From a bacterium (GTDB lineage Bacteria > DYJV01 > JALVYZ01): a stretch of DNA of 14,990 bases. The stretch covers positions 1-14,990 of the forward strand of contig JALVYZ010000085.1 in assembly GCA_027037705.1 (NCBI GenBank). The letters are read 5' to 3'. Position 1 is the first letter of the stretch. Every line of letters starts with the position of its first letter. The position numbers and the translations under genes are program-made. The notes under the pieces were generated by a model that saw only the letters and a program-made list of their open reading frames with translations, was not told where the DNA came from and did not search any database. Below, piece by piece: positions 412 through 13,121 of this stretch.

Positions 412-1263
412 ATGAAAAAGATAAAATTGTTTTTAGTCGGAATTTTCATTTTAGTTTGTTCAGTTTGTTTAAAAGCTACAGACGTAAAATTTTATGATGA
501 TTATTCTATTCAAATAATTAATGATATAAATCAATTTAGGTCCTTAAGTTTTATAGAAAAAGTGTTTAAAGCTGGTTATGGTTTAGAGGATTTATTTTCT
601 ATGAAAATACCTCTTAAAGAATGCTATTATTGTTCCGATTTTTTTGTGGATGAAGGTTTGATGCAATATGCTAAAAATAGAATTGTAGATATAATAAATA
701 AGAAAGATATTTCACATAAATTTATATCAGACAATAACAGTCAATATTTATTTAGTGGTGAAGGTATATTTATTTTAGCATTTCAAAATTATGTGGATAT
801 TCAACAAGCTACAAAAATACTTGAAAATAATTTATTTAAAACCACTTTATTAAGAAATAACCCAGAGTCAGTTTTTATGTATTATCCTTATGATAGAATA
901 GGTGCTGCTATTGCAACTGCTGAAATAGAATATGAGGGAGTTAGTTATAATATTGTTATACTTGTGGTTGAAGCTGCTATAACTGAGTTAGGTCGAAATC
1001 TTGAAAATGAAAATAAAAATAATGTGTTTTTAGGAAGAATATATTTTAATGGAAATGTTTGTGGTGATTGTAATTTGAATATATATAATTTAAATGGAGA
1101 TAAGGTTAGAGAGATTATTACTAATTTAGATGGGTCTTTTTTTGAAGTTGTGTTGCCAGAAGAATTTTACTTGACATATGGTAATGAAAAGATTAAAGTA
1201 AACTTAAAAAAAATTAATTTTAATAAAAATATTTACTTTCAAGGAATTGACACAGAAAAATAG
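412..1263 (+). CDS. Secreted CAP-domain-like protein with C-terminal carboxypeptidase-regulatory-like domain
   Basis: The 283-residue protein begins with a signal peptide (basic MKKIK, hydrophobic core, likely cleavage after LKA at 22). Residues about 34-190 follow the plan of CAP/SCP-PR1 extracellular domains: an opening helix INDINQFR, an AKNR helix, His102 (SHK), a GEG segment with Glu117, and a closing strand pair IGAAIATAEI and YNIVILVVEA. The second conserved His and Glu of classical CAP cavities are not evident, so any metal-linked activity may be lost. Residues about 206-275 (GRIYFNGNVCGDCNLNIYN, then an NLDGSF turn) look like a small beta-sandwich of the carboxypeptidase-regulatory type. 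The ATG at 412 is chosen because the signal peptide starts there. It lacks an obvious ribosome binding site and lies directly behind the sigma-54 promoter. CAP assignment is moderate; molecular function is unknown. Confidence 0.55.
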   Translation: MKKIKLFLVGIFILVCSVCLKATDVKFYDDYSIQIINDINQFRSLSFIEKVFKAGYGLEDLFSMKIPLKECYYCSDFFVDEGLMQYAKNRIVDIINKKDISHKFISDNNSQYLFSGEGIFILAFQNYVDIQQATKILENNLFKTTLLRNNPESVFMYYPYDRIGAAIATAEIEYEGVSYNIVILVVEAAITELGRNLENENKNNVFLGRIYFNGNVCGDCNLNIYNLNGDKVREIITNLDGSFFEVVLPEEFYLTYGNEKIKVNLKKINFNKNIYFQGIDTEK

Positions 1264-1275
1264 GTGTGATATAAT
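1247..1275 (+). promoter_or_regulatory. Consensus sigma-70 promoter with extended -10
   Basis: TTGACA (1247-1252), a 17-bp spacer and TATAAT (1270-1275) match the housekeeping consensus at every position. The -10 is preceded by TG at 1267-1268 (extended -10). The -35 lies inside the last codons of the CAP-like gene and the -10 just after its stop. Transcription should start about 1281-1282, so the downstream block can be expressed independently of the sigma-54 promoter. Confidence 0.8.
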
Positions 1276-1297
1276 ATATTAAGTGGGGTTGAAGGCT

Positions 1298-1795
1298 TTG
1301 AGAAAAAAATTCATAATTTTAATTTTTGTATTTTTTGTTAGTTTGTTTATAGTGGGTTGTGCCGAAAAAAATAAAAATATAAAAAAGCTTGCAAAAAGCA
1401 ATATTGGTATAAAATTTTTTAATAAATCTGGAGAAAAAATTGATAATGGCCTTTTTGAAAGGTTCAAAAAATACTGGACATTTCGAAAGGGGGTGAGATC
1501 AAAGGAGGCGTATCAGTTTGAAGTAAGGCATTTAATGGGAGTTCCGTATGATAACATTTATAAGGTATATATTGAAAAGTTTAATGATGCAAAAGTTGAA
1601 AAGGTAGAGATTGATAAAGTTGATAGCGATGGATTGAAATGGAAGAATTATGATGAAGTATGTTTTACTTTAAGATTTTATTTATTTAAAAAAAATATGT
1701 TAGGAAACAAAACATTTTCCCAGCAAGATTGTTGGGTGAATATTGATGGAGAGTGGTTTCATCTATTGAACAACCCTTTGTTGTTCAAATATTAA
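1298..1795 (+). CDS. Small lipoprotein of unknown function
   Basis: The protein has a lipoprotein signal: MRKKF, a hydrophobic run, and lipobox IVGC with the acylated Cys at residue 21 of this reading. The open frame extends up to a GTG at 1283. The consensus promoter places the transcript start at about 1281-1282, so a GTG start would be leaderless, and the TTG at 1289 directly abuts the GGGG. I therefore prefer the TTG at 1298, with GGGG (1285-1288) as a modest ribosome binding site. The mature part, about 145 residues, is basic and aromatic, ends in a WVNIDGEWFHLL segment, and has no domain I recognise. That ending recalls NTF2-like or DUF4878-type lipoproteins, but this is only an impression. 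It lies between the CAP-like gene and the abundant secreted-protein gene. Confidence 0.6.
   Translation: MRKKFIILIFVFFVSLFIVGCAEKNKNIKKLAKSNIGIKFFNKSGEKIDNGLFERFKKYWTFRKGVRSKEAYQFEVRHLMGVPYDNIYKVYIEKFNDAKVEKVEIDKVDSDGLKWKNYDEVCFTLRFYLFKKNMLGNKTFSQQDCWVNIDGEWFHLLNNPLLFKY
1766..1795 (+). promoter_or_regulatory. Perfect 9-bp palindrome over a possible promoter
   Basis: TTGAACAAC (1766-1774), a 5-base centre and GTTGTTCAA (1780-1788) form a perfect inverted repeat overlapping the last codons of the small lipoprotein gene. TTGAAC (1766-1771) and TATTAA (1790-1795) could also serve as weak -35/-10 elements with an 18-bp spacer, so the dyad would sit between them like an operator. As RNA it would be a 9-bp stem; no U-run follows, so it is a poor terminator. 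It lies 34 bp before the next ATG. Function is inferred. Confidence 0.4.
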
Positions 1796-1821
1796 ATAAA
1801 AACTAAAAAGGAGGAAGAAAG

Positions 1822-3102
1822 ATGAAGAAGTTAGTGTTAAGTTTGTTTTTAGCGTTAATGTTAGTTGGTAGTGTGTATGCTTCCTGTAATAGGCATACAA
1901 CTCAATCTCCAGATGGGAAGGGTAATTTATTAATTTACCCAGTTTACTTTGCAGCTGATGGTTTTCAAAGTAGGGTATGGATTACAAACACAAGTGATAA
2001 TTTATCAGTAGTTTATAAGGTTGTAATCTTTTCCCCAAAGTATTCAATTGAAATGAAAGACTTTTTTGTTTATTTAAGTCCGCATGATGCTACTTACTTT
2101 GACTTAAAAGCAGTTGGTAATGATGTGACAGTTGAGACAGATGATGATAGTATCTGTAATCCTTATGATGGAACTCAATGTGGAAGTAATTTTACATTTA
2201 CTCCTCTTGTAAAGCCTAATTGTGATGAAGATGCTTATGGGTATATTGTGGCATTTCCAGCAGCTGCATTTAATTTAGGGACAAGTCCTGTTGATAAAAA
2301 AGATATTGTGGATGAATATAATGATTATATTAAGGGTAGTGTAACATCACAGAATGTGCCTTATTCAGTATTCGGAAAATTAGAAATGTATAATAACCAA
2401 GGTGATTTTTACGCTGTTTATGATGCATATTCATTCAGGATCCCAGATGCATCTCAACCAATTGAAGTTGGAGATAAAACATCATTTGCAACAGTTAATT
2501 ATTTAGATGTAACAGATTTTGAAGCTGTTTTAGCTAAATCAAGAATTCATCTTGCAAATACTGAGCCTGCTGGTAATATGATTTATATTGTTAATTTCCC
2601 TACTAAAGAAACTGGGCAATGTCCATCTGATCCAGATCATGTAATGGGAACTGGTCCATTCTTTACAGAAAGTGCTAATTATAGCACAGATCAGTATGGT
2701 AATTTTGGAATTTCATATAATTATGTAAATTATGATATGAAAGAATATACTGAAAAGGGACCTACTTGTACACAGTCTCCATGTGGTGAAACTCATGTTC
2801 CAGTATTCCCATATGAAGTTAACTTTGTATTTGATGAAGGTTTTGCAAGCATGGGATATAATTACATTGTATTCCCACAAACTGGTGGAACAAATAACTT
2901 TACAGATAAAGCAGGGGATAATGTATCATTTGATGGTGCACCAGCATTACCATTAACATTTATTATCCATGCAAATGGTAGTTATGGATTTGTTAAACCA
3001 GCATTTACACATGGTGATGTAACATGTGATAATGGAACAGTAATGATGACCTACCCAGATGGAAATGATTTCTATTATGGATGGGATTATTCAGCTCAGT
3101 AG
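1822..3102 (+). CDS. Secreted protein of unknown family, probably highly expressed
   Basis: The 426-residue precursor has a textbook signal peptide ending VYA at residue 20, cleaved before Ser21. YASC is a poor lipobox, so I favour a soluble or surface protein. The N-terminal part reads NLLIYPVYFAADGFQSRVWI, then NTSDN, then VYLSPHD and a TDDDSIC segment. From memory this resembles a type of uncharacterised secreted protein in thermophilic and sulfur-metabolising diderm bacteria that has a strand-rich LLIFP...NTS...LSP pattern; I cannot name a family. Eight further cysteines, some paired closely (CNPYDGTQC, CTQSPC), suggest disulfides. The ribosome binding site AAGGAGG (1808-1814), 7 bases before ATG, is the strongest in the cluster. 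Codon choice looks more restricted than in its neighbours (CCA for Pro, frequent TTC). Both suggest abundant expression, perhaps as a structural surface protein. The next gene starts 10 bases after its stop. Confidence 0.65.
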   Translation: MKKLVLSLFLALMLVGSVYASCNRHTTQSPDGKGNLLIYPVYFAADGFQSRVWITNTSDNLSVVYKVVIFSPKYSIEMKDFFVYLSPHDATYFDLKAVGNDVTVETDDDSICNPYDGTQCGSNFTFTPLVKPNCDEDAYGYIVAFPAAAFNLGTSPVDKKDIVDEYNDYIKGSVTSQNVPYSVFGKLEMYNNQGDFYAVYDAYSFRIPDASQPIEVGDKTSFATVNYLDVTDFEAVLAKSRIHLANTEPAGNMIYIVNFPTKETGQCPSDPDHVMGTGPFFTESANYSTDQYGNFGISYNYVNYDMKEYTEKGPTCTQSPCGETHVPVFPYEVNFVFDEGFASMGYNYIVFPQTGGTNNFTDKAGDNVSFDGAPALPLTFIIHANGSYGFVKPAFTHGDVTCDNGTVMMTYPDGNDFYYGWDYSAQ

Positions 3103-3111
3103 GAGAGTAAA

Positions 3112-6100
3112 TTGAATAAGTTATTAATTCATAGCAGGGTTAAAAAAAATAAAGTAGCGGGATTCCTAATCCCGCTACTTATGATAATATTTTTATTTTG
3201 GTCGTTTAGTTTACTTTCTGCAAGTGATTATAAATCTTTTCAGGTTGTATATGGACATAAGTATATTGGTTTAAAAGGGTTTAGAGATTTAGGAAATCCT
3301 CATAGATTAACTCCTGATAGTAATGGTGAGATTGAAATTTCATATCTTGCTCATAGGGATGATAATGCGAATACTATATATAACTTCCCGATAAAAATTG
3401 CATTGTATATCCCTCCTTTTTTAACAGAAGTCATCGGTGGGCAAATATTTTTTAATTACACTATTCCTATAGGATTTTGTATTAAATATAAAAATTTTCC
3501 ATTATGCAGTAACGTTCCAAATATAAATGATTCTGAAGGTTGGGATAATTTTTATACAACTGTTTTCCCTGATGATTATTATAATGAAGTACATTTTAAA
3601 AATTTATCTGGAAATATAGCTTTGTTATATATCACAAAACCAATTAATGATGAATTATCTTCTGGATGGTTATTTTTTAATGAAATTAATCCCCAAGAAG
3701 GTGGTGTTGGAATCAGAAGTTTTTCATTAAGTTTTAATGTAAATTATAATGACTATGTGAAATGGTATGATAGTATAAAAGAACCTTTAAATCCAAATGA
3801 TTCATCTTTTTATTATAGTAATTGTGTGGATTCAAATCATCCTCAAAATTATACAAGGCATAATTGTATTGTTGATGGAGATAATATTTGTGAAAATGTC
3901 CCAGGTTTTAAAAATAGTGAATATACTCCATACTATTACTATACTAAAAATGGTGATTCATCTGGAAAAAAATATTTTTATTGTTGGGTGCCAGGAGGTA
4001 ATTATAGTAATGGTGAGATAATATGGGATATATGGAGTGATGATATTTATTTTCCTGTAAATTCTACAAAATATCAATGCTCACCATCAAATCTTCAGTA
4101 TTGCAATAATCAAAGTGATTGTGAAAATATTGGACATGGATATTGGTATGATAATAAATGTAATTCTATAAGCAAAGAGGAAAAATGCCTACAAGATATT
4201 CAATATTGTGATAATGAGACATTATGTAGTTATTATAAAGATAATAAGCCTGATAACTCAACATATTGGGATAATAGTACTAATAAATGTACATTTAGCT
4301 GTAGTGAGCAGCATTTAGACTTTTGTGATAATCAAACTGCCTGTGATGAAGTTTTCGGAGAACAAGGGCACTGGTATAATAATGAATGTAATTTATTAAC
4401 TAAAGAGGAAAAATGCTTACAGGATATTCAATTTTGTGATAATGAAACATTATGTACTTTATATCATGATAATAAAGATAATGCATCCTATTGGAACGGA
4501 GAGTCTTGTACTTTTCATTGTAGTTTAAACCATTTAGGTTATTGTGATAATCAAACTGCATGCAATGAGGTATTTAATGACAATAAAGAACATTGGTATG
4601 ATAATAAATGTAATCTTCAGGATAAAGAATTTGCATGCTTAAATCAGGATATAAAATATTGTGATAATGAGACATTATGTGACCTTTATCATGATAATAA
4701 AGATAATGAATCTTATTGGAATGGAGAAACTTGCACCTTTCATTGCTCTCAGAAACATTTAGATTATTGTGATAGTCAAGCTGCTTGTGAAAATGCTGGA
4801 GGATACTGGATTAATAGCAGATGTAGTTCAATTAATATAGAATGTTTAAATAATCCAGATAAATGCACAACTCAAGAGTTGTGCGAAGAAGCTCATTATC
4901 AATGGTATAATGGAAAATGTGAATATAATTGTAGTTATTATACATTAGATAGCTGTCATGATAAAAATAGTTGTGAAAATGCAGGTGGTGTATGGAATGG
5001 CTCAAGTTGTAATTCAAAGCCAAAGTCATGTTCTTTAAGTATTATTTTTGCGGCAAATTTTCAACATAATAAGTCTTTGTGTATAGAATATAACTGTAAA
5101 TGGGAAAATAATCAGTGTGTCGATCCTTCAAGTAGTGGTACTCCAGGTGGAAATGAAGGTGGAAATGGTTCTGAAGGGGAAAATAACCAAAATAATGATA
5201 ATATAACAGGATTAAATAATTGGGAAATTGATGATAATTTTATGGTTTTAAACACTGATAGTTGTAATGGAGATACTTTAACTCAAAATGATAAATTAAC
5301 ATTTATTATTAGACATAAAGGTATTTATAATAAATATGTATTTCCTATTTTTGGTATAATTTATTCTGATGGTTCTCAAGTTTATTATGAAATAAAGAAA
5401 ACAGGAGATTTTTATAGACTAACCTATTGGAATACATCTGAATTAAGTCCAGATAATACATTTGAATTTGGAAATAAATTATTTGGTAAAGATGAGACTA
5501 ATTATGCTACTATAAATGTATTTCAAAATATCTTTCAAAATGGAGAAATAGATGTATGTAGTAATCAGGTCCAATTTGAAAATATATTGGAAAGTAAAAC
5601 AGGTATTCAGACAGAATTAGATAATATTAGTCAGATTTTATTAGGAACTATAGTAATGGATAAGCTTTTTACTTTAAAAGACTTTTTATATAACGAAAAG
5701 TCAGTTACTGAAGATAATGTAAAAAAATTACCAATTAAAGGAAATGGAATCTTCGGCTGGAAATATAAATTATTAAATATAGATTGCAGTCAATCTCATT
5801 GTACCTCTTCAAACGAAGAAGATAATAATTCTATTAGCCAGGGAGGAAATGAAACTGCTTCTGTTTATGAACCAAAATTTGTAAATTATATAATTGATAA
5901 TAATACATTAACTTTTGATGAAACTGATGTAATAAATGATTATAATGTATTATTGTTAGGATATTTGGAAAATAAAGTAGAAGGTGGAAAAGTATATTTT
6001 GATATATGTAGAGATGGTTCAGTTGGGTTAGTAGGAGGAGATAGTGAATATCAAAATTATCTAAATGGAAATATTTATAATAATAGTTGTGTAAATTATA

Positions 6101-6309
6101 CAGAAAATCAAATTTCTCTTTTTCAATCTGGTATTTTAGATGCATTAAAAGAATTGTGTAATTCATACAATATTAAGATGTTAGAATTTTATATAAATAA
6201 GAAATTATTTAATATTGTAAACTTATTACATCTTGATGTTAATTCAAATAAATATTATTTTTACTATAGGGAAAAAGACTTTTGTAGCTGGGTGCAATCT
6301 TTACAGTAA
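3112..6309 (+). CDS. Giant secreted Cys-rich repeat protein
   Basis: The 1065-residue protein starts at a TTG with AGGAGAG (3101-3107) overlapping the previous stop, which suggests translational coupling. The n-region is RVKKNK, followed by a hydrophobic stretch ending SLLSA at about 37. Residues about 38-320 are aromatic and probably beta-rich. Residues 323-669 hold five Cys-rich modules starting at C323, C397, C470, C545 and C607. Each is built from half-units of about C-x6-C-x5-C, then a W/YW pair and a closing Cys. A GGNEGGNGSEG linker near 680-700 leads to a C-terminal region of about 350 residues with few cysteines and no domain I recognise. Cysteines in such numbers on an exported protein imply disulfides outside the cytoplasm. 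I read it as a surface or adhesive structural protein. No sortase motif, transmembrane anchor or autotransporter barrel is evident, so how it is retained is unknown. Confidence 0.7.
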   Translation: MNKLLIHSRVKKNKVAGFLIPLLMIIFLFWSFSLLSASDYKSFQVVYGHKYIGLKGFRDLGNPHRLTPDSNGEIEISYLAHRDDNANTIYNFPIKIALYIPPFLTEVIGGQIFFNYTIPIGFCIKYKNFPLCSNVPNINDSEGWDNFYTTVFPDDYYNEVHFKNLSGNIALLYITKPINDELSSGWLFFNEINPQEGGVGIRSFSLSFNVNYNDYVKWYDSIKEPLNPNDSSFYYSNCVDSNHPQNYTRHNCIVDGDNICENVPGFKNSEYTPYYYYTKNGDSSGKKYFYCWVPGGNYSNGEIIWDIWSDDIYFPVNSTKYQCSPSNLQYCNNQSDCENIGHGYWYDNKCNSISKEEKCLQDIQYCDNETLCSYYKDNKPDNSTYWDNSTNKCTFSCSEQHLDFCDNQTACDEVFGEQGHWYNNECNLLTKEEKCLQDIQFCDNETLCTLYHDNKDNASYWNGESCTFHCSLNHLGYCDNQTACNEVFNDNKEHWYDNKCNLQDKEFACLNQDIKYCDNETLCDLYHDNKDNESYWNGETCTFHCSQKHLDYCDSQAACENAGGYWINSRCSSINIECLNNPDKCTTQELCEEAHYQWYNGKCEYNCSYYTLDSCHDKNSCENAGGVWNGSSCNSKPKSCSLSIIFAANFQHNKSLCIEYNCKWENNQCVDPSSSGTPGGNEGGNGSEGENNQNNDNITGLNNWEIDDNFMVLNTDSCNGDTLTQNDKLTFIIRHKGIYNKYVFPIFGIIYSDGSQVYYEIKKTGDFYRLTYWNTSELSPDNTFEFGNKLFGKDETNYATINVFQNIFQNGEIDVCSNQVQFENILESKTGIQTELDNISQILLGTIVMDKLFTLKDFLYNEKSVTEDNVKKLPIKGNGIFGWKYKLLNIDCSQSHCTSSNEEDNNSISQGGNETASVYEPKFVNYIIDNNTLTFDETDVINDYNVLLLGYLENKVEGGKVYFDICRDGSVGLVGGDSEYQNYLNGNIYNNSCVNYTENQISLFQSGILDALKELCNSYNIKMLEFYINKKLFNIVNLLHLDVNSNKYYFYYREKDFCSWVQSLQ
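3152..3180 (+). promoter_or_regulatory. Perfect 13-bp hairpin inside signal-peptide codons
   Basis: AAGTAGCGGGATT (3152-3164), loop CCT, and AATCCCGCTACTT (3168-3180) pair perfectly. The arm is about half G+C within surroundings near a quarter. It is preceded by an A-rich run and followed by a T-rich but interrupted stretch, so it resembles an intrinsic terminator or attenuator. It lies 40 bases into the giant-protein gene and encodes part of the signal-peptide core (AGFLIPLL). It could lower transcription of the giant gene relative to the abundant gene upstream, or stabilise the upstream message's 3' end. The stem is seen; the role is inferred. Confidence 0.6.
4078..5118 (+). repeat. Five tandem Cys-rich modules (about 186-225 bp each)
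   Basis: Module starts are 4078, 4300, 4519, 4744 and 4930. The second and third (4300-4518, 4519-4743) are clearly homologous at DNA level: both contain GATAATCAAACTGC and TATCATGATAATAAAGATAA. The KEEKCLQDIQ segment and the CDNETLC segment recur in the first three modules. The fourth and fifth are shorter and diverged, with a CENAGG half-unit in each. Differences between copies are a mix of silent and coding changes with lengths in multiples of three, the pattern expected of repeats expanded by duplication and kept under coding constraint. Confidence 0.85.
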
Positions 6310-6412
6310 TATTTTTTTATTAGATGATAATGGATTATTATCCCATAAATAAGTTTTCTTTATCAAGTCCTTCTAATACCATTCTTTTAAATTCTATAAA
6401 AGGAGTATATAA

Positions 6413-7447
6413 ATGAAAAGATTATTTTATGTAACAGGTCTTTTTATTCTTATGTTTCTTGCATCATGTGCAAGCAGAATGCAGATGGATGTGAAACCGC
6501 ATAATGTATCATATCAAGAAATCCAAAAGAAGAATATCGCAAAAGTTGTAATTTTACCTTTTTATAACTGTAATATTTCTAAATTTGATAAATTAAATCT
6601 TATTTTATATGATGATTTATCTGATGTTCTAATAAAGCATAATTTTATTCCAGTGCCATATGATGAAATTGTAAGCCTTATTTATAAAAATAGTGAAAGC
6701 GAAGAAGTAAAAATTTCTGATAGTTTATTGGCAGAGCTTAATAATCCTCTATGGTCAAATGAAATGAAAAAAGAAATTGAAAATATAATCTATACTGACG
6801 AAAAATATTATAAAAGCAGAAAGAAAAATTGTACATCTATAGATCAAAATGAAATTATTAATATTGGGGAGAGATATTCTGCTAAATTTGTAATAAAAGC
6901 ATTAATAACTGAATTTGAATTTTTAAATGAAGAAACTTTTAATCCATTTAAAATTGGATTTTTAAATACTCCTGCAAAATTAATTAGTAGAACTATGTAC
7001 GGAAAACCTTCATCTGACAATTGGGGAAAATTTCAAAATATGATAAGTAGTGGTTTACTTGGCGGAATAATTGGTTATAATTTAGGGGAGCCTTTTGATT
7101 CAAGGTCTTATAAAAATGTAAAAGTAGGTCATCCATATTTAGGATATACAATTAGACAAAGAAGTGGTGGGGATAGTGATCATAAATGGAAAAATGGATT
7201 ATTCTGGGGAGGAACTGCAGCATTAAATGGTTTAATTGCGAGTTATAGTGGTGATTTTAAATACCTAAATGTAGGAATTAGATTATATGTTTATGATGTT
7301 GATACAAAACAACTTGTCTGGACAGATAGAGTTAAATTAAGAATTGAACCTGAAAGTATGTATGCTAATGTAAATGAAGATGATTTGATAAATTCTGCTG
7401 TTAAAGAAGGTGTTTCATTATTAATGGCTTCATTTTTTGGTGAATAA
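6413..7447 (+). CDS. Outer-membrane lipoprotein, possible CsgG/LpoB-like fold
   Basis: The 344-residue protein has a clear lipobox (LASC, Cys19) after MKRLF and a hydrophobic run. AAAGGAG (6398-6404) precedes the ATG by 8 bases. The core follows a plan shared by CsgG, LpoB and related envelope lipoproteins: a first strand KVVILPFYN (44-52), a helix with an LIKHNF turn, a segment AKFVIKALITEFE (157-169), and a late strand with YDVDTKQLVW (294-303), like the 'D..TG.VLW' strand of that fold. Between them lies a Gly-rich insert (GLLGGIIG about 214-221, GLFWGGTAALNG about 262-273) that may form membrane-interacting hairpins. CsgG makes a secretion pore for curli and LpoB activates a peptidoglycan synthase; which applies here, if either, cannot be decided. 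It sits between two secreted-protein genes, so an assembly or export role is possible. Fold assignment is tentative; lipoprotein status is solid. Confidence 0.55.
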   Translation: MKRLFYVTGLFILMFLASCASRMQMDVKPHNVSYQEIQKKNIAKVVILPFYNCNISKFDKLNLILYDDLSDVLIKHNFIPVPYDEIVSLIYKNSESEEVKISDSLLAELNNPLWSNEMKKEIENIIYTDEKYYKSRKKNCTSIDQNEIINIGERYSAKFVIKALITEFEFLNEETFNPFKIGFLNTPAKLISRTMYGKPSSDNWGKFQNMISSGLLGGIIGYNLGEPFDSRSYKNVKVGHPYLGYTIRQRSGGDSDHKWKNGLFWGGTAALNGLIASYSGDFKYLNVGIRLYVYDVDTKQLVWTDRVKLRIEPESMYANVNEDDLINSAVKEGVSLLMASFFGE

Positions 7448-7459
7448 TTGGAGGAAAAT

Positions 7460-8956
7460 ATGAAAAAAATAGTTATAAAAACATTATTGTTTTTTATAAT
7501 ATGTTTATTTAATTATAGTTTATACGCTGGAAGTGTAACTCTCTTTCCTTATTCAATTAATTTAAAATTTTATGATGATCAGCCTCAATCATTTAATGTT
7601 GGTATTGGATGTTCTGGATTTTTAACAGATGAAAATGGGGCTTCTAAAGCAAGTTGTTTTATTGTTTCAAACAATGCTGGAGTTACTTTTAATGGAGATG
7701 CGGCATGTAATAAATCAGTAAATGTTAAGGTAGATCCAAATGTTTTATTTTCAAATAATTTTACTATAACAGTATACTGTGCGGATAATGAAACAAGTGG
7801 AACTGACACATTGAATGTTTCTGTGGATCTAACAGAATATTACAATAATTATAGATATAAAGAAATTACTCCAAAAAAATTAATATGGGTTGAACATGTT
7901 TATGGAGATAATGTAACAGATAAAGATAATGTAACAGAAAGTAAAACTACATTAAAGATAGACACTTTGAGTATAAATGTTATTAATTTTGATAATAATT
8001 GGTCTTATGAGACTGATGCAGATTGGCTTGCTATTGGAAAAAGTGGAAATCAATTATTTGTGAAGCCAATAATTGAATTATTTCCATTTAATCAGAAATA
8101 TTTATACACAAAAATTAAAATTTTTGATTCATTTACTACAATGTATTCAGATGTTTATATACTTTTAACTGATACTGATAATAAGTCATTTAATGATAAA
8201 TATAATTTTAAAATTTTTGAATATAATGATTCTAATGGAAACAAAAATAAAGAAGCCTGGAATATTGATAATATGAAAAGGTTATATACTTTTTTTAATA
8301 TATCAAAATATTTTGATTCATCTCAAGATTATTCAAATAAAAAAGAATATCTAACAATCTCATTGGATAATGATAATCAGAATGTATGGGCTTATAATCC
8401 TTCAGATCCAAGGATTTTTATACCAGTCAAAATTAATGGAGTATATGTTCCTGGATGTGATGAAGCATACTTTAGTAAAGGAAAGATTGATATAATACCT
8501 TTTGGTCCATTTACTCTTACAGGATTTACAGGAAGAGTTAATATTAGTGTTAATATTGGGGATAATTATACTGATTCTGAAAATCATCAATTATTTGATT
8601 TATATCTAAGTATTTATGGTATAAAAGGGAAATGGCAGTTATATGATATGTATGAAGGTCAAACATATAAACATCCTAATCTTTTAAATATTTTTAGAGA
8701 TGGAGAGGGGAATATATCTGGTTGTTTTATTGATGAAAATAATCAATGTGTTAAATTTTTAGATGTTTCTTTAGATAATAATTTTAGGTATAGATTAGTT
8801 TTCTATAATGAAGATTACATATTTGAATATGAAGTTTATAACTTAATGGAAACACAGTTAGAAGGTAAGTGGAGATGGTGTAGAAATAATTATTGCCATG
8901 ACTGGGAAAAGTTTTACGGAGTAAAAGTATTAGACTTATTTAATAGTGTATATTAA
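7460..8956 (+). CDS. Secreted beta-rich protein of unknown function
   Basis: The start is the ATG at 7460. The frame opens at a TTG at 7448, but that codon overlaps the ribosome binding site GGAGG (7450-7454), and the signal peptide begins at MKKIVIK, ending LYA at 23. The mature protein, about 475 residues, has four cysteines near the N-terminus and is dominated by alternating hydrophobic and aromatic residues typical of beta-sandwich domains. Residues about 180-206 (WSYETDADWLAIGKSG and the strand LFVKP) resemble the signature of BACON/Ig-like domains, in which a conserved W-L follows a sandwich strand. The C-terminal part (GKWQLYDM, then EGKWRWCRNNYC) looks like a second small barrel or sandwich. 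It starts 12 bases after the lipoprotein stop, so the two are probably cotranscribed. Function is unknown; an extracellular structural or binding role is inferred. Confidence 0.6.
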   Translation: MKKIVIKTLLFFIICLFNYSLYAGSVTLFPYSINLKFYDDQPQSFNVGIGCSGFLTDENGASKASCFIVSNNAGVTFNGDAACNKSVNVKVDPNVLFSNNFTITVYCADNETSGTDTLNVSVDLTEYYNNYRYKEITPKKLIWVEHVYGDNVTDKDNVTESKTTLKIDTLSINVINFDNNWSYETDADWLAIGKSGNQLFVKPIIELFPFNQKYLYTKIKIFDSFTTMYSDVYILLTDTDNKSFNDKYNFKIFEYNDSNGNKNKEAWNIDNMKRLYTFFNISKYFDSSQDYSNKKEYLTISLDNDNQNVWAYNPSDPRIFIPVKINGVYVPGCDEAYFSKGKIDIIPFGPFTLTGFTGRVNISVNIGDNYTDSENHQLFDLYLSIYGIKGKWQLYDMYEGQTYKHPNLLNIFRDGEGNISGCFIDENNQCVKFLDVSLDNNFRYRLVFYNEDYIFEYEVYNLMETQLEGKWRWCRNNYCHDWEKFYGVKVLDLFNSVY

Positions 8957-8978
8957 TTTACCTTTCTAATTAATATTA

Positions 8979-9050
<72 letters not shown>

Positions 9051-9060
9051 AGTTCACTTC

Positions 9061-9089
9061 TTTTTATTAAAAATTAAAAAAATTGTCAA
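9061..9089 (-). promoter_or_regulatory. Probable promoter of tRNA-Gly
   Basis: Read on the minus strand, TTGACA occupies 9089-9084 and, after a 17-bp spacer, TAAAAA occupies 9066-9061 (four of six -10 matches). Transcription would start near 9054, about four bases before the mature tRNA 5' end at 9050. The perfect -35 and spacing support it; the weak -10 limits confidence. I see no equally good plus-strand promoter for pal in 9090-9145; TATTAT at 9116-9121 is a possible -10 without a well-placed -35. Confidence 0.5.
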
Positions 9090-9157
9090 GATAAGTTGAA
9101 TTATTAATTTGAATGTATTATAGTAATTAAACTAAATATATTAATAAGGAGGGGAGA

Positions 9158-9754
9158 ATGAAAAGATTAATTATTTTTTTATTTTTAATATTTTTAGTTT
9201 TTGGTTGTGCTGGCAAAAATAAAAGTACAAAAAGTGTTTATAACAATGGAATTAATGGTGGAAAAAGTGGCAAATCAACTCCTGCTTTTTCTGTTTTTAA
9301 AGGTTCAGAAAAAGGAAAAAGTATAAAATCTGAGTCTTTAGAAGAAGCTAATATAGCAAAATCTAATGAAGAGATTTCTGAAAATGAAGGAAATTTAGAG
9401 AACCAAGGTATAGTTGGTGGATTTCAACTTAGAGATATTCATTTTGATTTTGACAGTGCAATTATAAAACCTCAGGATATCCCTTACCTTGAAAGTCTTG
9501 GAGAGTTTTTACAATCGCATAAAGAATATAAATTAGTGATTGAAGGTCATTGTGATGAAAGAGGTTCTGAAATGTATAATTTGGCATTAGGTCAAAGGAG
9601 AGCTGAATCTGTAAAAAAATTTCTTGTAAATTTAGGAATTAGTCCTGATAGAATCCAAACTATTAGCTATGGGGAGGAAAAGCCAGTAGATCCAAGACAT
9701 AATGAAGAAGCATGGGCAAAAAATAGAAGATGTCATTTTATTTTGGAGAAATGA
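9158..9754 (+). CDS. pal: Peptidoglycan-associated lipoprotein Pal
   Basis: The 198-residue protein has a lipobox VFGC with Cys17, a low-complexity Lys/Ser/Asn/Glu linker (about 18-88), and an OmpA-like peptidoglycan-binding domain at 91-198. The domain shows the Pal hallmarks: IHFDFDSAIIKP at 94-105, LVIEGHCDERG at 126-136 with the Asp and Arg that contact diaminopimelate, a LGQRRAESVK helix, and SYGEEKPVDP before the AWAKNRR motif. Pal ties the outer membrane to the wall and works with the Tol proteins during division; no tol genes are visible here. AAGGAGG (9146-9152) lies 5 bases before the ATG. The stop is separated from the hisH GTG by a single base, so the two are cotranscribed. Confidence 0.93.
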   Translation: MKRLIIFLFLIFLVFGCAGKNKSTKSVYNNGINGGKSGKSTPAFSVFKGSEKGKSIKSESLEEANIAKSNEEISENEGNLENQGIVGGFQLRDIHFDFDSAIIKPQDIPYLESLGEFLQSHKEYKLVIEGHCDERGSEMYNLALGQRRAESVKKFLVNLGISPDRIQTISYGEEKPVDPRHNEEAWAKNRRCHFILEK

Positions 9755-9755
9755 A

Positions 9756-10370
9756 GTGAAGCAGAAAATAGGTTTAATTGATTATGGAATGGGTAATTTA
9801 AGAAGTGTGTCAAAAGCAATTGAAATATCTAATGGAGATGTAAAGATAATTACCGAACCAGATGATATTTTAAAAATGGATAAAATAATTTTACCTGGGG
9901 TGGGTGCAATAAAGGATTGTATTAGGAATTTGGAGAAATATAACTTAGTTGATGCAATAAAAGAATTTATAAAAACTGGGAAATATTTTTTAGGTATATG
10001 TCTGGGGTTTCAAGCTTTATTTGAAGAAAGTACAGAATTTGGACATACAAAAGCCCTTGGAATTATAGAGGGGAAAGTTACAAAATTTGAAAATTTAGGT
10101 AAATTACCTGTGCCTCATATGGGATGGAACAATGTTATTATTAAAAAGAAAACTCCTTTGTTAAATGGGATAGAAGATGGAGATTATTTTTATTTTGCTC
10201 ATTCTTATTTTGTTAATCCAAAAAATGAGAATGATATTATGACAGAAACAGATTATGGTATAAATTTTGTGTCTTCAATTAATAGAGAAAATATTTATGG
10301 AGTTCAGTTTCACCCTGAAAAAAGTCAAAAAAAAGGATTGAGAATTATAAAAAATTTTGTATCTTTGTAG
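9756..10370 (+). CDS. hisH: Imidazole glycerol phosphate synthase glutaminase subunit HisH
   Basis: This class I glutamine amidotransferase supplies ammonia to HisF in the fifth step of histidine synthesis. Starting at GTG 9756 gives 204 residues, the usual family length. An upstream ATG at 9702 in the same frame lies inside pal and would add an unrelated 18-residue head. GGAG (9745-9748) is well placed for the GTG. Visible motifs are IGLIDYGMGNL at 5-15, LPGVGA at 46-51, the nucleophile elbow GICLG with Cys82, PHMGWN at 120-125, and GVQFHPEKS with His186 and Glu188 completing the triad. HisF and other his genes are absent from the window, and its placement between pal and a lipoprotein gene is unusual. 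A HisH-like role in sugar amidation (as in some surface-polysaccharide clusters) is an alternative, but nothing nearby supports it. Confidence 0.9.
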   Translation: MKQKIGLIDYGMGNLRSVSKAIEISNGDVKIITEPDDILKMDKIILPGVGAIKDCIRNLEKYNLVDAIKEFIKTGKYFLGICLGFQALFEESTEFGHTKALGIIEGKVTKFENLGKLPVPHMGWNNVIIKKKTPLLNGIEDGDYFYFAHSYFVNPKNENDIMTETDYGINFVSSINRENIYGVQFHPEKSQKKGLRIIKNFVSL

Positions 10371-10384
10371 ATGGGAGATATCTA

Positions 10385-11020
10385 ATGAAAAAGATATTTA
10401 TTATTTTAATTATTGTTTTTTTATTTTCATGTTCGCATAAAAATATAAAGAAAAATGAAGTTCAAGTTAAAAAGCCAACAAGAGTATATGTTGCACCTTT
10501 TAAATATTTAAAATCTCCAATAGAATTTTCAAATTTAGATATTAAAATAGAAAAAAATATGATTAAATATTCATATAATAATCAGCTTTTAGATCTTATT
10601 GTTAGAGACCTTGCGCAAAAATTTTATATTAAATTAAAAAACCTAAGAAAGGATTACAAGCCTGTTTCAATAGATGATGTTGAAAATGTATTCCAAGTAC
10701 CTATAAATAAAGTATCTAAAAAAGATATAGCAGAAAGATTTAATGTTGATTATATAATTCAAGGATATATAATAAAATTTGTTGAAAGACAGGGTAACAG
10801 CTTTTCTGTAAATGTTCCAGCAGAAGTACATTTTATAATAATAATGAAAGATATTCGTACAAATAAAGTGTTATGGTATAAACAATACCATGAAAAACAG
10901 GAATCTCTTAGTTCAAATTTGTTATATTTTTATAAATTTTTTAAAAGAAAAGGAAAATGGGTAAGTGTTATGGAACTCACTGAATCAGCTTTTAGTAAAA
11001 TAATATTAGAATTACCATGA
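10385..11020 (+). CDS. Lipoprotein of CsgG/LpoB-like or GNA1162-like type
   Basis: The 211-residue protein has a lipobox LFSC with Cys16. It then shows TRVYVAPFKY (32-41), a helix DLIVRDLAQKF, a segment VDYIIQGYII (121-130) and a strand DIRTNKVLWYKQY (156-168). This order of strands (API/AVLPF-type opening, 'A.YI..G.I', 'D..T..VLW') is shared with several envelope lipoproteins including LpoB, CsgG and GNA1162. The fold resembles that proposed for the larger lipoprotein at 6413, although the two are not obviously close relatives. The start has GGGAG 7 to 8 bases upstream. Its last codon overlaps the maf start in an ATGA junction. Role unknown; outer-membrane or periplasmic location is likely. 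Confidence 0.55.
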   Translation: MKKIFIILIIVFLFSCSHKNIKKNEVQVKKPTRVYVAPFKYLKSPIEFSNLDIKIEKNMIKYSYNNQLLDLIVRDLAQKFYIKLKNLRKDYKPVSIDDVENVFQVPINKVSKKDIAERFNVDYIIQGYIIKFVERQGNSFSVNVPAEVHFIIIMKDIRTNKVLWYKQYHEKQESLSSNLLYFYKFFKRKGKWVSVMELTESAFSKIILELP

Positions 11021-12606: not shown

Positions 12607-12635
12607 TTGACAAATAAATTATATAAAACTATAAT
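12607..12635 (+). promoter_or_regulatory. Perfect consensus promoter of rnpB
   Basis: TTGACA (12607-12612), a 17-bp spacer and TATAAT (12630-12635) match the housekeeping consensus completely. The predicted start, about 12641-12642, coincides with the 5' end of helix P1. The promoter sits in the short gap after the coiled-coil gene, so rnpB is transcribed on its own. Confidence 0.9.
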
Positions 12636-12640
12636 ATTTT

Positions 12641-13083
12641 AGGGTGGTCAGGCAGCCGCTCTCTCACAATATGTGAGAGGGAGGAAAGTCCGAACACCAG
12701 AGGGCAGGATGGCAGGTAACACCTGCTGGCAGCAATGCCAGGATAGGGCCACAGAAAACAGACCGCCGAGCACCTACTGGATGTTTAATTCTATATGATA
12801 ATTTTATATTTTGATAAATTTTGAAAAATCATTAAGAGAATTAATAATCAGTAGGTGCTCGGTAAGGGTGAAAAGGTGGGGTAAGAGCCCACCGCATCTC
12901 TGGTAACAGAGATGGCATGGCATCCCCCATCTGGTGCAAGGCCAAATAGGGAGCCGATGGTTGCCCTCACCAATGGCTCCGGGTAGGCCGCTTGAGCCTT
13001 CAGGTGACTGAAGGCCCAGATGAATGGCTGCCACCTCAAAGTTTTAGCTTTGAGGTACAGAATTCGGCTTATAGACCACCCCA
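12641..13083 (+). ncRNA. rnpB: RNase P RNA, bacterial type A
   Basis: This catalytic RNA matures tRNA 5' ends. GGGTGGTC (12642-12649) pairs with GACCACCC (13074-13081) as helix P1. P3 is CTCTCAC/GTGAGAG (12661-12679). Conserved regions follow in order: GAGGAAAGTCCG (from 12681), a GGGCCACAGAAAACAGACCGCC-type block ending about 12767, GGTAAGGGTGAAAAGG (from 12861), GGTGCAAGGCCAAATAGG, GGTAGGCCGCTTGAGCC, and ACAGAATTCGGCTTA (from 13057). P18 (GCCTTCAGGTGACTGAAGGC) and a P19 hairpin (CCTCAAAG/CTTTGAGG) are present. Helix P12 is elongated: CCGAGCACCTACTG (12766-12779) pairs with 12849-12862 and carries a 69-base AT-rich tip. The RNA is much richer in G+C than the genes around it, except in that tip. 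A T-run after P1 (13085-13089) may help end transcription. Confidence 0.97.
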
Positions 13084-13121
13084 TTTTTTGTAAATTATTT
13101 TAAAACAATCTTAATGACTCC

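Follow-up and report, generated by a model that had tools for sequence, protein, structure and literature searches.

Two separately conserved gene pairs and two orphan genes in a patch of exported-protein genes of a DYJV01 bacterium

Do six consecutive genes for exported proteins constitute a single surface system? This question is raised by contig JALVYZ010000085.1 (assembly GCA_027037705.1; GTDB lineage DYJV01, JALVYZ01), whose entire 15-kb length (14,990 nucleotides) is the window analyzed here and which belongs to a genome of 496 contigs that is 93% complete. Six plus-strand open reading frames between positions 412 and 8956, named here by their first position, follow one another with gaps of 19, 26, 9, 103 and 12 bp, and a first-pass annotation, made from the sequence alone, had proposed that their products act together. 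Our results do not support one system; they divide the cluster into two or more conserved pairs of genes that are unrelated to each other, 1283–1822 (pair A) and 6413–7460 (pair B), plus two orphans, 412 and 3112 (Table 1).

A search for the same gene order in other genomes had been named in advance as the check on the one-system proposal. It found pair A on plasmids of Nitratiruptor and in a third lineage (G355), and pair B in one other genome (G001), never all six genes. Since pairs A and B occur elsewhere without each other's genes, the six-gene system is unsupported; no homologue of 412 or 3112 was detectable at the Nitratiruptor and G355 loci or in G001. A joint system, in which a CAP-like protein, a lipoprotein, a major protein, a Cys-rich protein and an outer-membrane partner work together, would agree with six consecutive, co-directional exported genes separated by short gaps and with the strong promoter match before 1283. 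Besides the separate occurrence of the pairs, it is opposed by the 103-bp gap before 6413 and by the promoter match and hairpin that lie inside the stretch, and we give it only a small chance of being right.

Other parts of the first-pass annotation held. Each of the six products carries a cleavable-looking signal sequence (412, 1822, 3112 and 7460) or a lipobox (1283 and 6413), as assigned by sequence inspection, and they are indeed envelope or exported proteins that mostly fall outside known families. The last four genes do lie close together, yet so do all six (gaps of 9–103 bp). For 7460, the ATG at 7460 was preferred as start over a TTG at 7448.

Table 1. Coordinates of the cluster genes and of associated features in the window
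Feature	Position	Strand	Description
412	412-1263	+	283-aa secreted protein with signal peptide; resemblance to CAP seen by eye only
Candidate promoter	1247-1275	+	Sigma-70 type match, 12/12, TTGACA-17-TATAAT, TG before -10; overlaps end of 412, upstream of 1283
1283	1283-1795	+	Pair A, gene 1; lipoprotein, lipobox IVGC
1822	1822-3102	+	Pair A, gene 2; secreted protein, signal sequence
3112	3112-6309	+	Large secreted protein of 1065 aa, rich in Asn and Cys; orphan
Candidate attenuator	3152-3180		Perfect 13-bp inverted repeat, 3-nt loop, T-rich downstream; inside 5' end of 3112
Repeat array in 3112	about 4075-5028	+	Four-Cys, one-Trp repeats
6413	6413-7447	+	Pair B, gene 1; lipoprotein, lipobox LASC
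7460	7460-8956	+	Pair B, gene 2; secreted, Ig-like, beta-rich protein
tRNA-Gly	8979-9050	minus	Right border of the cluster
RNase P RNA gene	12640-13087

The conservation and homology of the pairs are the firm parts of our analysis. For pair A, 1283 is homologous to lipoproteins encoded on Nitratiruptor plasmids (BLASTP 1e-10; hhalign 3e-11), and 1822 aligns over most of its length with hypothetical proteins of these plasmids (tblastn 7e-10; hhalign 8.1e-15). Neither product is convincingly covered by Pfam, NCBIfam, PHROG or PDB families. The N-terminal domain of 1822 is marked by the pattern GxLIxPxY...NT...SxExxDFxxxLxPxD. The best PDB match of 1283 is the cystatin-like 2rgq, which is weak (E 0.14), and a Pfam NTF2 match is absent; the lipoprotein possibly contains an NTF2/cystatin-like domain. 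On plasmids NZ_AP023066, which belongs to the cultured Nitratiruptor sp. YY09-18, and NZ_AP023064 the homologue of 1283 (about 145 residues) is encoded directly upstream of the 1822-like gene, and NZ_AP023064 harbors two such units. A PpiC-type isomerase gene lies just 5' of the lipoprotein gene, and genes for a subtilase and a PMT-type glycosyltransferase lie 3'. The 35-kb plasmid with two units encodes GspD, E, F and G, a PDZ protein, PpiC isomerases, a subtilase and a PMT glycosyltransferase, so that positions 3676-35010 of NZ_AP023064.1 combine a type II secretion system (T2SS) with units of PpiC, lipoprotein, 1822-like and large protein. The stretch read of the 24-kb plasmid holds genes for a secretin, GspE, PpiC, subtilase and PMT. 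The plasmid annotation of Nitratiruptor strain YY08-10 includes none of the T2SS and pair A gene set, and a term search of the paper on these strains (PMC9723563) turned up no mention of secretion.

The third lineage, G355, was found with a profile of the lipoprotein (4.7e-10), which is again encoded directly upstream of an 1822-domain protein (1.6e-6), here surrounded by genes that read as sugar-transfer functions. The 1822 domain also occurs in three further genomes. G307 has tandem long 1822-domain proteins of 584 and 608 aa (locus 2760-6419), and in G354 and G084 the 1822-domain gene is followed by one for a large secreted protein, which in G084 has a PKD domain. Because G354 and G084 also have such a protein 3' of the 1822 domain, the large downstream exoprotein appears to be a recurring, non-homologous companion of 1822-domain genes. 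Two viral-contig scans with 1822 and its family gave no match, nor did phages match 1822.

In the window this position is taken by 3112, which was rightly described as a Cys-rich repeat protein (5.1% Cys). Nine repeat units could be aligned, all sharing four invariant Cys and one invariant Trp, and a profile of the repeat matched only 3112 among 116 genomes. No significant match to 3112 was obtained in Pfam, NCBIfam, PHROGs, PDB or plasmids. Homology to the large protein encoded after the Nitratiruptor 1822-like genes had been suspected by eye and was unsupported by hhalign. The protein contains 29 N-x-S/T sequons, compared to 16.4 in shuffled sequences (p 0.001), and the reversed motif occurs 13 times. 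The other orphan, 412, had been called CAP-like; no Pfam family was found at E<=10, a PDB sequence search returned no CAP chain, and the resemblance is one by eye only. The suggestion that 1822 is probably abundant was likewise not confirmed: its NNC codon fraction of 0.15 falls within the range of the other window genes (0.05-0.16), although a 12/12 promoter match is situated one gene before it.

Promoter-like sites in the window (126 found, 111 expected) are near their chance number for AT-rich DNA, and only the quality of the match upstream of 1283 stands out. The window contains only two 12/12 matches, the other of which (12607-12635) precedes the RNase P RNA gene by 5 bp. A stem of 13 bp, as in the inverted repeat at the start of 3112, was reached in 2 of 100 shuffles; the possibility that this is a dispersed repeat was ruled out by its single copy in the genome. 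As read from the sequence, the candidate promoter and the hairpin would fit a dominant 1283–1822 transcript with attenuated expression of 3112.

Pair B has a much narrower distribution. When the six products were used as a joint query against the window's genome and G001, G001 yielded only homologues of 6413 (36% identity) and 7460 (33%), adjacent and on the same strand; 412, 1283, 1822 and 3112 were not found there by this search. The pair thus appears to have persisted as a unit in two families of the order, in the absence of the other four genes. From reading of translations, its G001 neighbours are genes for an acyltransferase and, on the opposite side, a DUF2207-like membrane protein, unrelated to the flanks of the pair in the window. 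A sample of 60 genomes included G001 as the only other member of the order and none from elsewhere in the phylum. Among 386 diverse genomes, 6413 was found only in the two genomes of this order and 7460 had no further homologue, and a scan of genome contigs with both proteins returned only the G001 locus. G001 is a metagenome-assembled genome whose contig names bear the label AS07-7, a label also used in a paper on the sulfidic caves of Frasassi and Acquasanta (PMC4288042).

A model of 6413, built from two sequences, was compared with known structures. The core matched FlgT (Z 12.5, rmsd 3.5, 143 residues aligned), PelC (11.6, 3.7, 149), TolB (11.3, 2.6, 120), GNA1162 (10.5, 2.8, 117), TraT (9.6, 2.7, 116) and CsgG (8.7, 6.4, 142); CsgG was also among the Foldseek matches, and LpoB was matched as well. 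We conclude with moderate confidence that the 6413 core has a fold of the FlgT/TolB-N/PelC/GNA1162/TraT/CsgG type, which backs the CsgG/LpoB-like core proposed in the first pass. At the sequence level, 6413 matched no CsgG-family profile in Pfam; the only hit, LpoB (E 0.13), fell short of the cut-off. A Gly-rich insert (residues about 170-285), modelled as helices, separates the third long strand from the next and contains two Gly-rich hydrophobic segments that resemble those of TraT in hydrophobicity and in chain position.

We considered whether 6413 is a CsgG-like pore that exports 7460, and perhaps 1822, in the manner of curli secretion. Such a role would suit the structural match to CsgG, the lipobox and the conserved neighbour 7460. 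CsgG, however, scores below FlgT, PelC and TolB, the insert is modelled as helices (at low confidence, pLDDT <50) and not as the beta hairpins of CsgG, and Pfam finds no curlin, CsgE or CsgF among the six products, so that we see a slim chance for an export pore. The membrane helices of TraT form an alpha-helical barrel (PMC11733297), and 6413 might instead form a ring resembling TraT, held in the outer membrane by alpha-helices, that serves surface exclusion or protection and has no exported partner. The structural match to TraT and the location of the hydrophobic segments speak for such a ring, as does the occurrence of chromosomal TraT homologues in several phyla (PMC11733297). Against it, there is no Pfam TraT match and no hhalign support for a sequence relationship with F TraT (probability 0.3%), and the insert is modelled at low confidence; we consider this reading very improbable.

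The N-terminus of 7460 is an Ig-like domain (residues about 22-123; model pLDDT about 70-84). Its second domain is possibly BACON-like, as the G001 homologue weakly matches BACON_2 (E 0.039; 14.3 bits, compared to a cut-off of 25). The middle part is modelled at low confidence and the C-terminus forms a beta meander.

We return to the reading of 412-8956 as a patch of exported-protein genes consisting of two independent conserved pairs and two genes without relatives. Taken together with the functions that we propose for the pairs, we give it an even chance. In this proposal, 1822 would cross the inner membrane by the Sec pathway and then most likely reach the cell surface through a T2SS, where it may contribute to a coat or matrix of protein and perhaps be glycosylated. 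The outer-membrane lipoprotein 1283, with its possible NTF2-like domain, most likely binds 1822, acting as a receptor or anchor in the periplasm or at the surface. 3112 would be a second surface protein, disulphide-rich and perhaps N-glycosylated, that is expressed from the same promoter as pair A and possibly attenuated by the hairpin. For pair B, we infer that 6413 is an outer-membrane lipoprotein that would form an oligomeric ring anchored in the membrane by its Gly-rich insert, with 7460 as its putative Ig-like secreted partner.

The window's genome provides some candidates for these steps. It has GspE-, GspF- and GspG-like genes on contigs other than the window, and on contig C254 (locus 7457-10591) genes for a PglB-type oligosaccharyltransferase, a GT2-like protein and a GspG-like pseudopilin stand in a row. 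Both genomes of the order have a gene with an STT3/PglB core domain, for which the STT3 and PglB matches exceed the cut-off, and in G001 the oligosaccharyltransferase gene adjoins a subtilase gene. More broadly, 1283–1822 might be an undescribed, horizontally moving two-gene module, a lipoprotein with a secreted coat protein from an unnamed family that occurs in several phyla, exported by a T2SS (which certain hosts would carry on a plasmid for this purpose) and paired with varying large exoproteins and with protein glycosylation; this generalization is tentative, and we hold it to be possible rather than probable.

Several observations weigh against the proposed functions. No T2SS was evident in the 20 kb read around the G355 pair, and a search of the window's genome gave no secretin match to the GspD of Nitratiruptor; its T2SS genes are unlinked to the window, and its GspE/F/G-like genes could also be type IV pilus genes. 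For 1822 and 7460, the surplus of sequons disappears once the reversed motif is taken as control and is thus not peculiar to the forward one. The model of 6413 has a mean pLDDT of only 49, with 70-87 in the best core blocks and <50 in the insert, and both expression and interaction of the six products are predictions.

The borders of the cluster bear on how it arose. At the left contig edge (1-286) lies a C-terminal fragment of PemK/MazF (PF02452, 1.4e-9), and to the right tRNA-Gly is followed by pal, hisH, the lipoprotein gene 10385, maf, yggS and the RNase P RNA gene, in agreement with the toxin remnant and housekeeping genes recognized earlier. The toxin fragment has an in-frame stop upstream and looks like a degenerate remnant. 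The export patch was correctly delimited as far as 412-8956 are all exported, but 8956 is not its limit, as an exported lipoprotein is encoded beyond it. This lipoprotein (10385-11020) may be of the LpoB/GNA1162 kind, and hhalign aligns 22 of its residues to 6413 (E 7e-4, probability 27%).

Such borders could also mean that the two pairs and two orphans were gathered by successive insertions beside tRNA-Gly, with no functional link beyond each pair. A distance of 23 bp separates the cluster from the 3' end of the tRNA gene, the MazF remnant lies on the opposite side, 412 and 3112 have no found homologue, and pair A is plasmid-borne elsewhere. Yet a search of the window found no duplicated tRNA-Gly end that could be an attachment site, and no integrase was seen in the contig by open reading frame list and family scan; a copy of the tRNA end with one mismatch on contig C174 may simply be another tRNA gene. 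An accidental patch, which differs from the reading that we prefer mainly by denying the link of 3112 to pair A, seems to us rather unlikely.

The guess of one six-gene system is thus replaced by two concrete pairs, one of which is present on small plasmids of cultured deep-sea vent Nitratiruptor and missing from the plasmid of a related strain. If the link to secretion is true, it would name a T2SS-exported surface protein family outside the family libraries used here.

Compared with known systems, 6413 lacks sequence-level membership in the TolB-N/FlgT-M/PelC/GNA1162/LpoB/TraT/CsgG class, has a long Gly-rich insert and a partner gene, 7460, seen in this lineage alone, but it shares the lipobox and beta-alpha-beta core of that class. 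It is 100 residues longer than TraT, without detectable sequence homology and outside any tra operon, whereas the two proteins have in common the fold of the core and a pair of Gly-rich hydrophobic segments at a similar place in the chain. As for bacterial PglB-type N-glycosylation, the oligosaccharyltransferase gene is unlinked to the window and glycosylation of the cluster proteins is putative, while an STT3/PglB gene is present in both genomes and sequons are in excess in 3112. Unlike the T2SS clusters of Nitratiruptor plasmids pNitYY0918_PLS and pNitYY0826_PLS, the window lacks linked genes for a T2SS, PpiC, a subtilase or a glycosyltransferase, and hhalign detects no homology between its large downstream protein and theirs; nevertheless, the same two genes stand in the same order in both (hhalign 3e-11 and 8e-15), and in both a large secreted protein comes after the pair.

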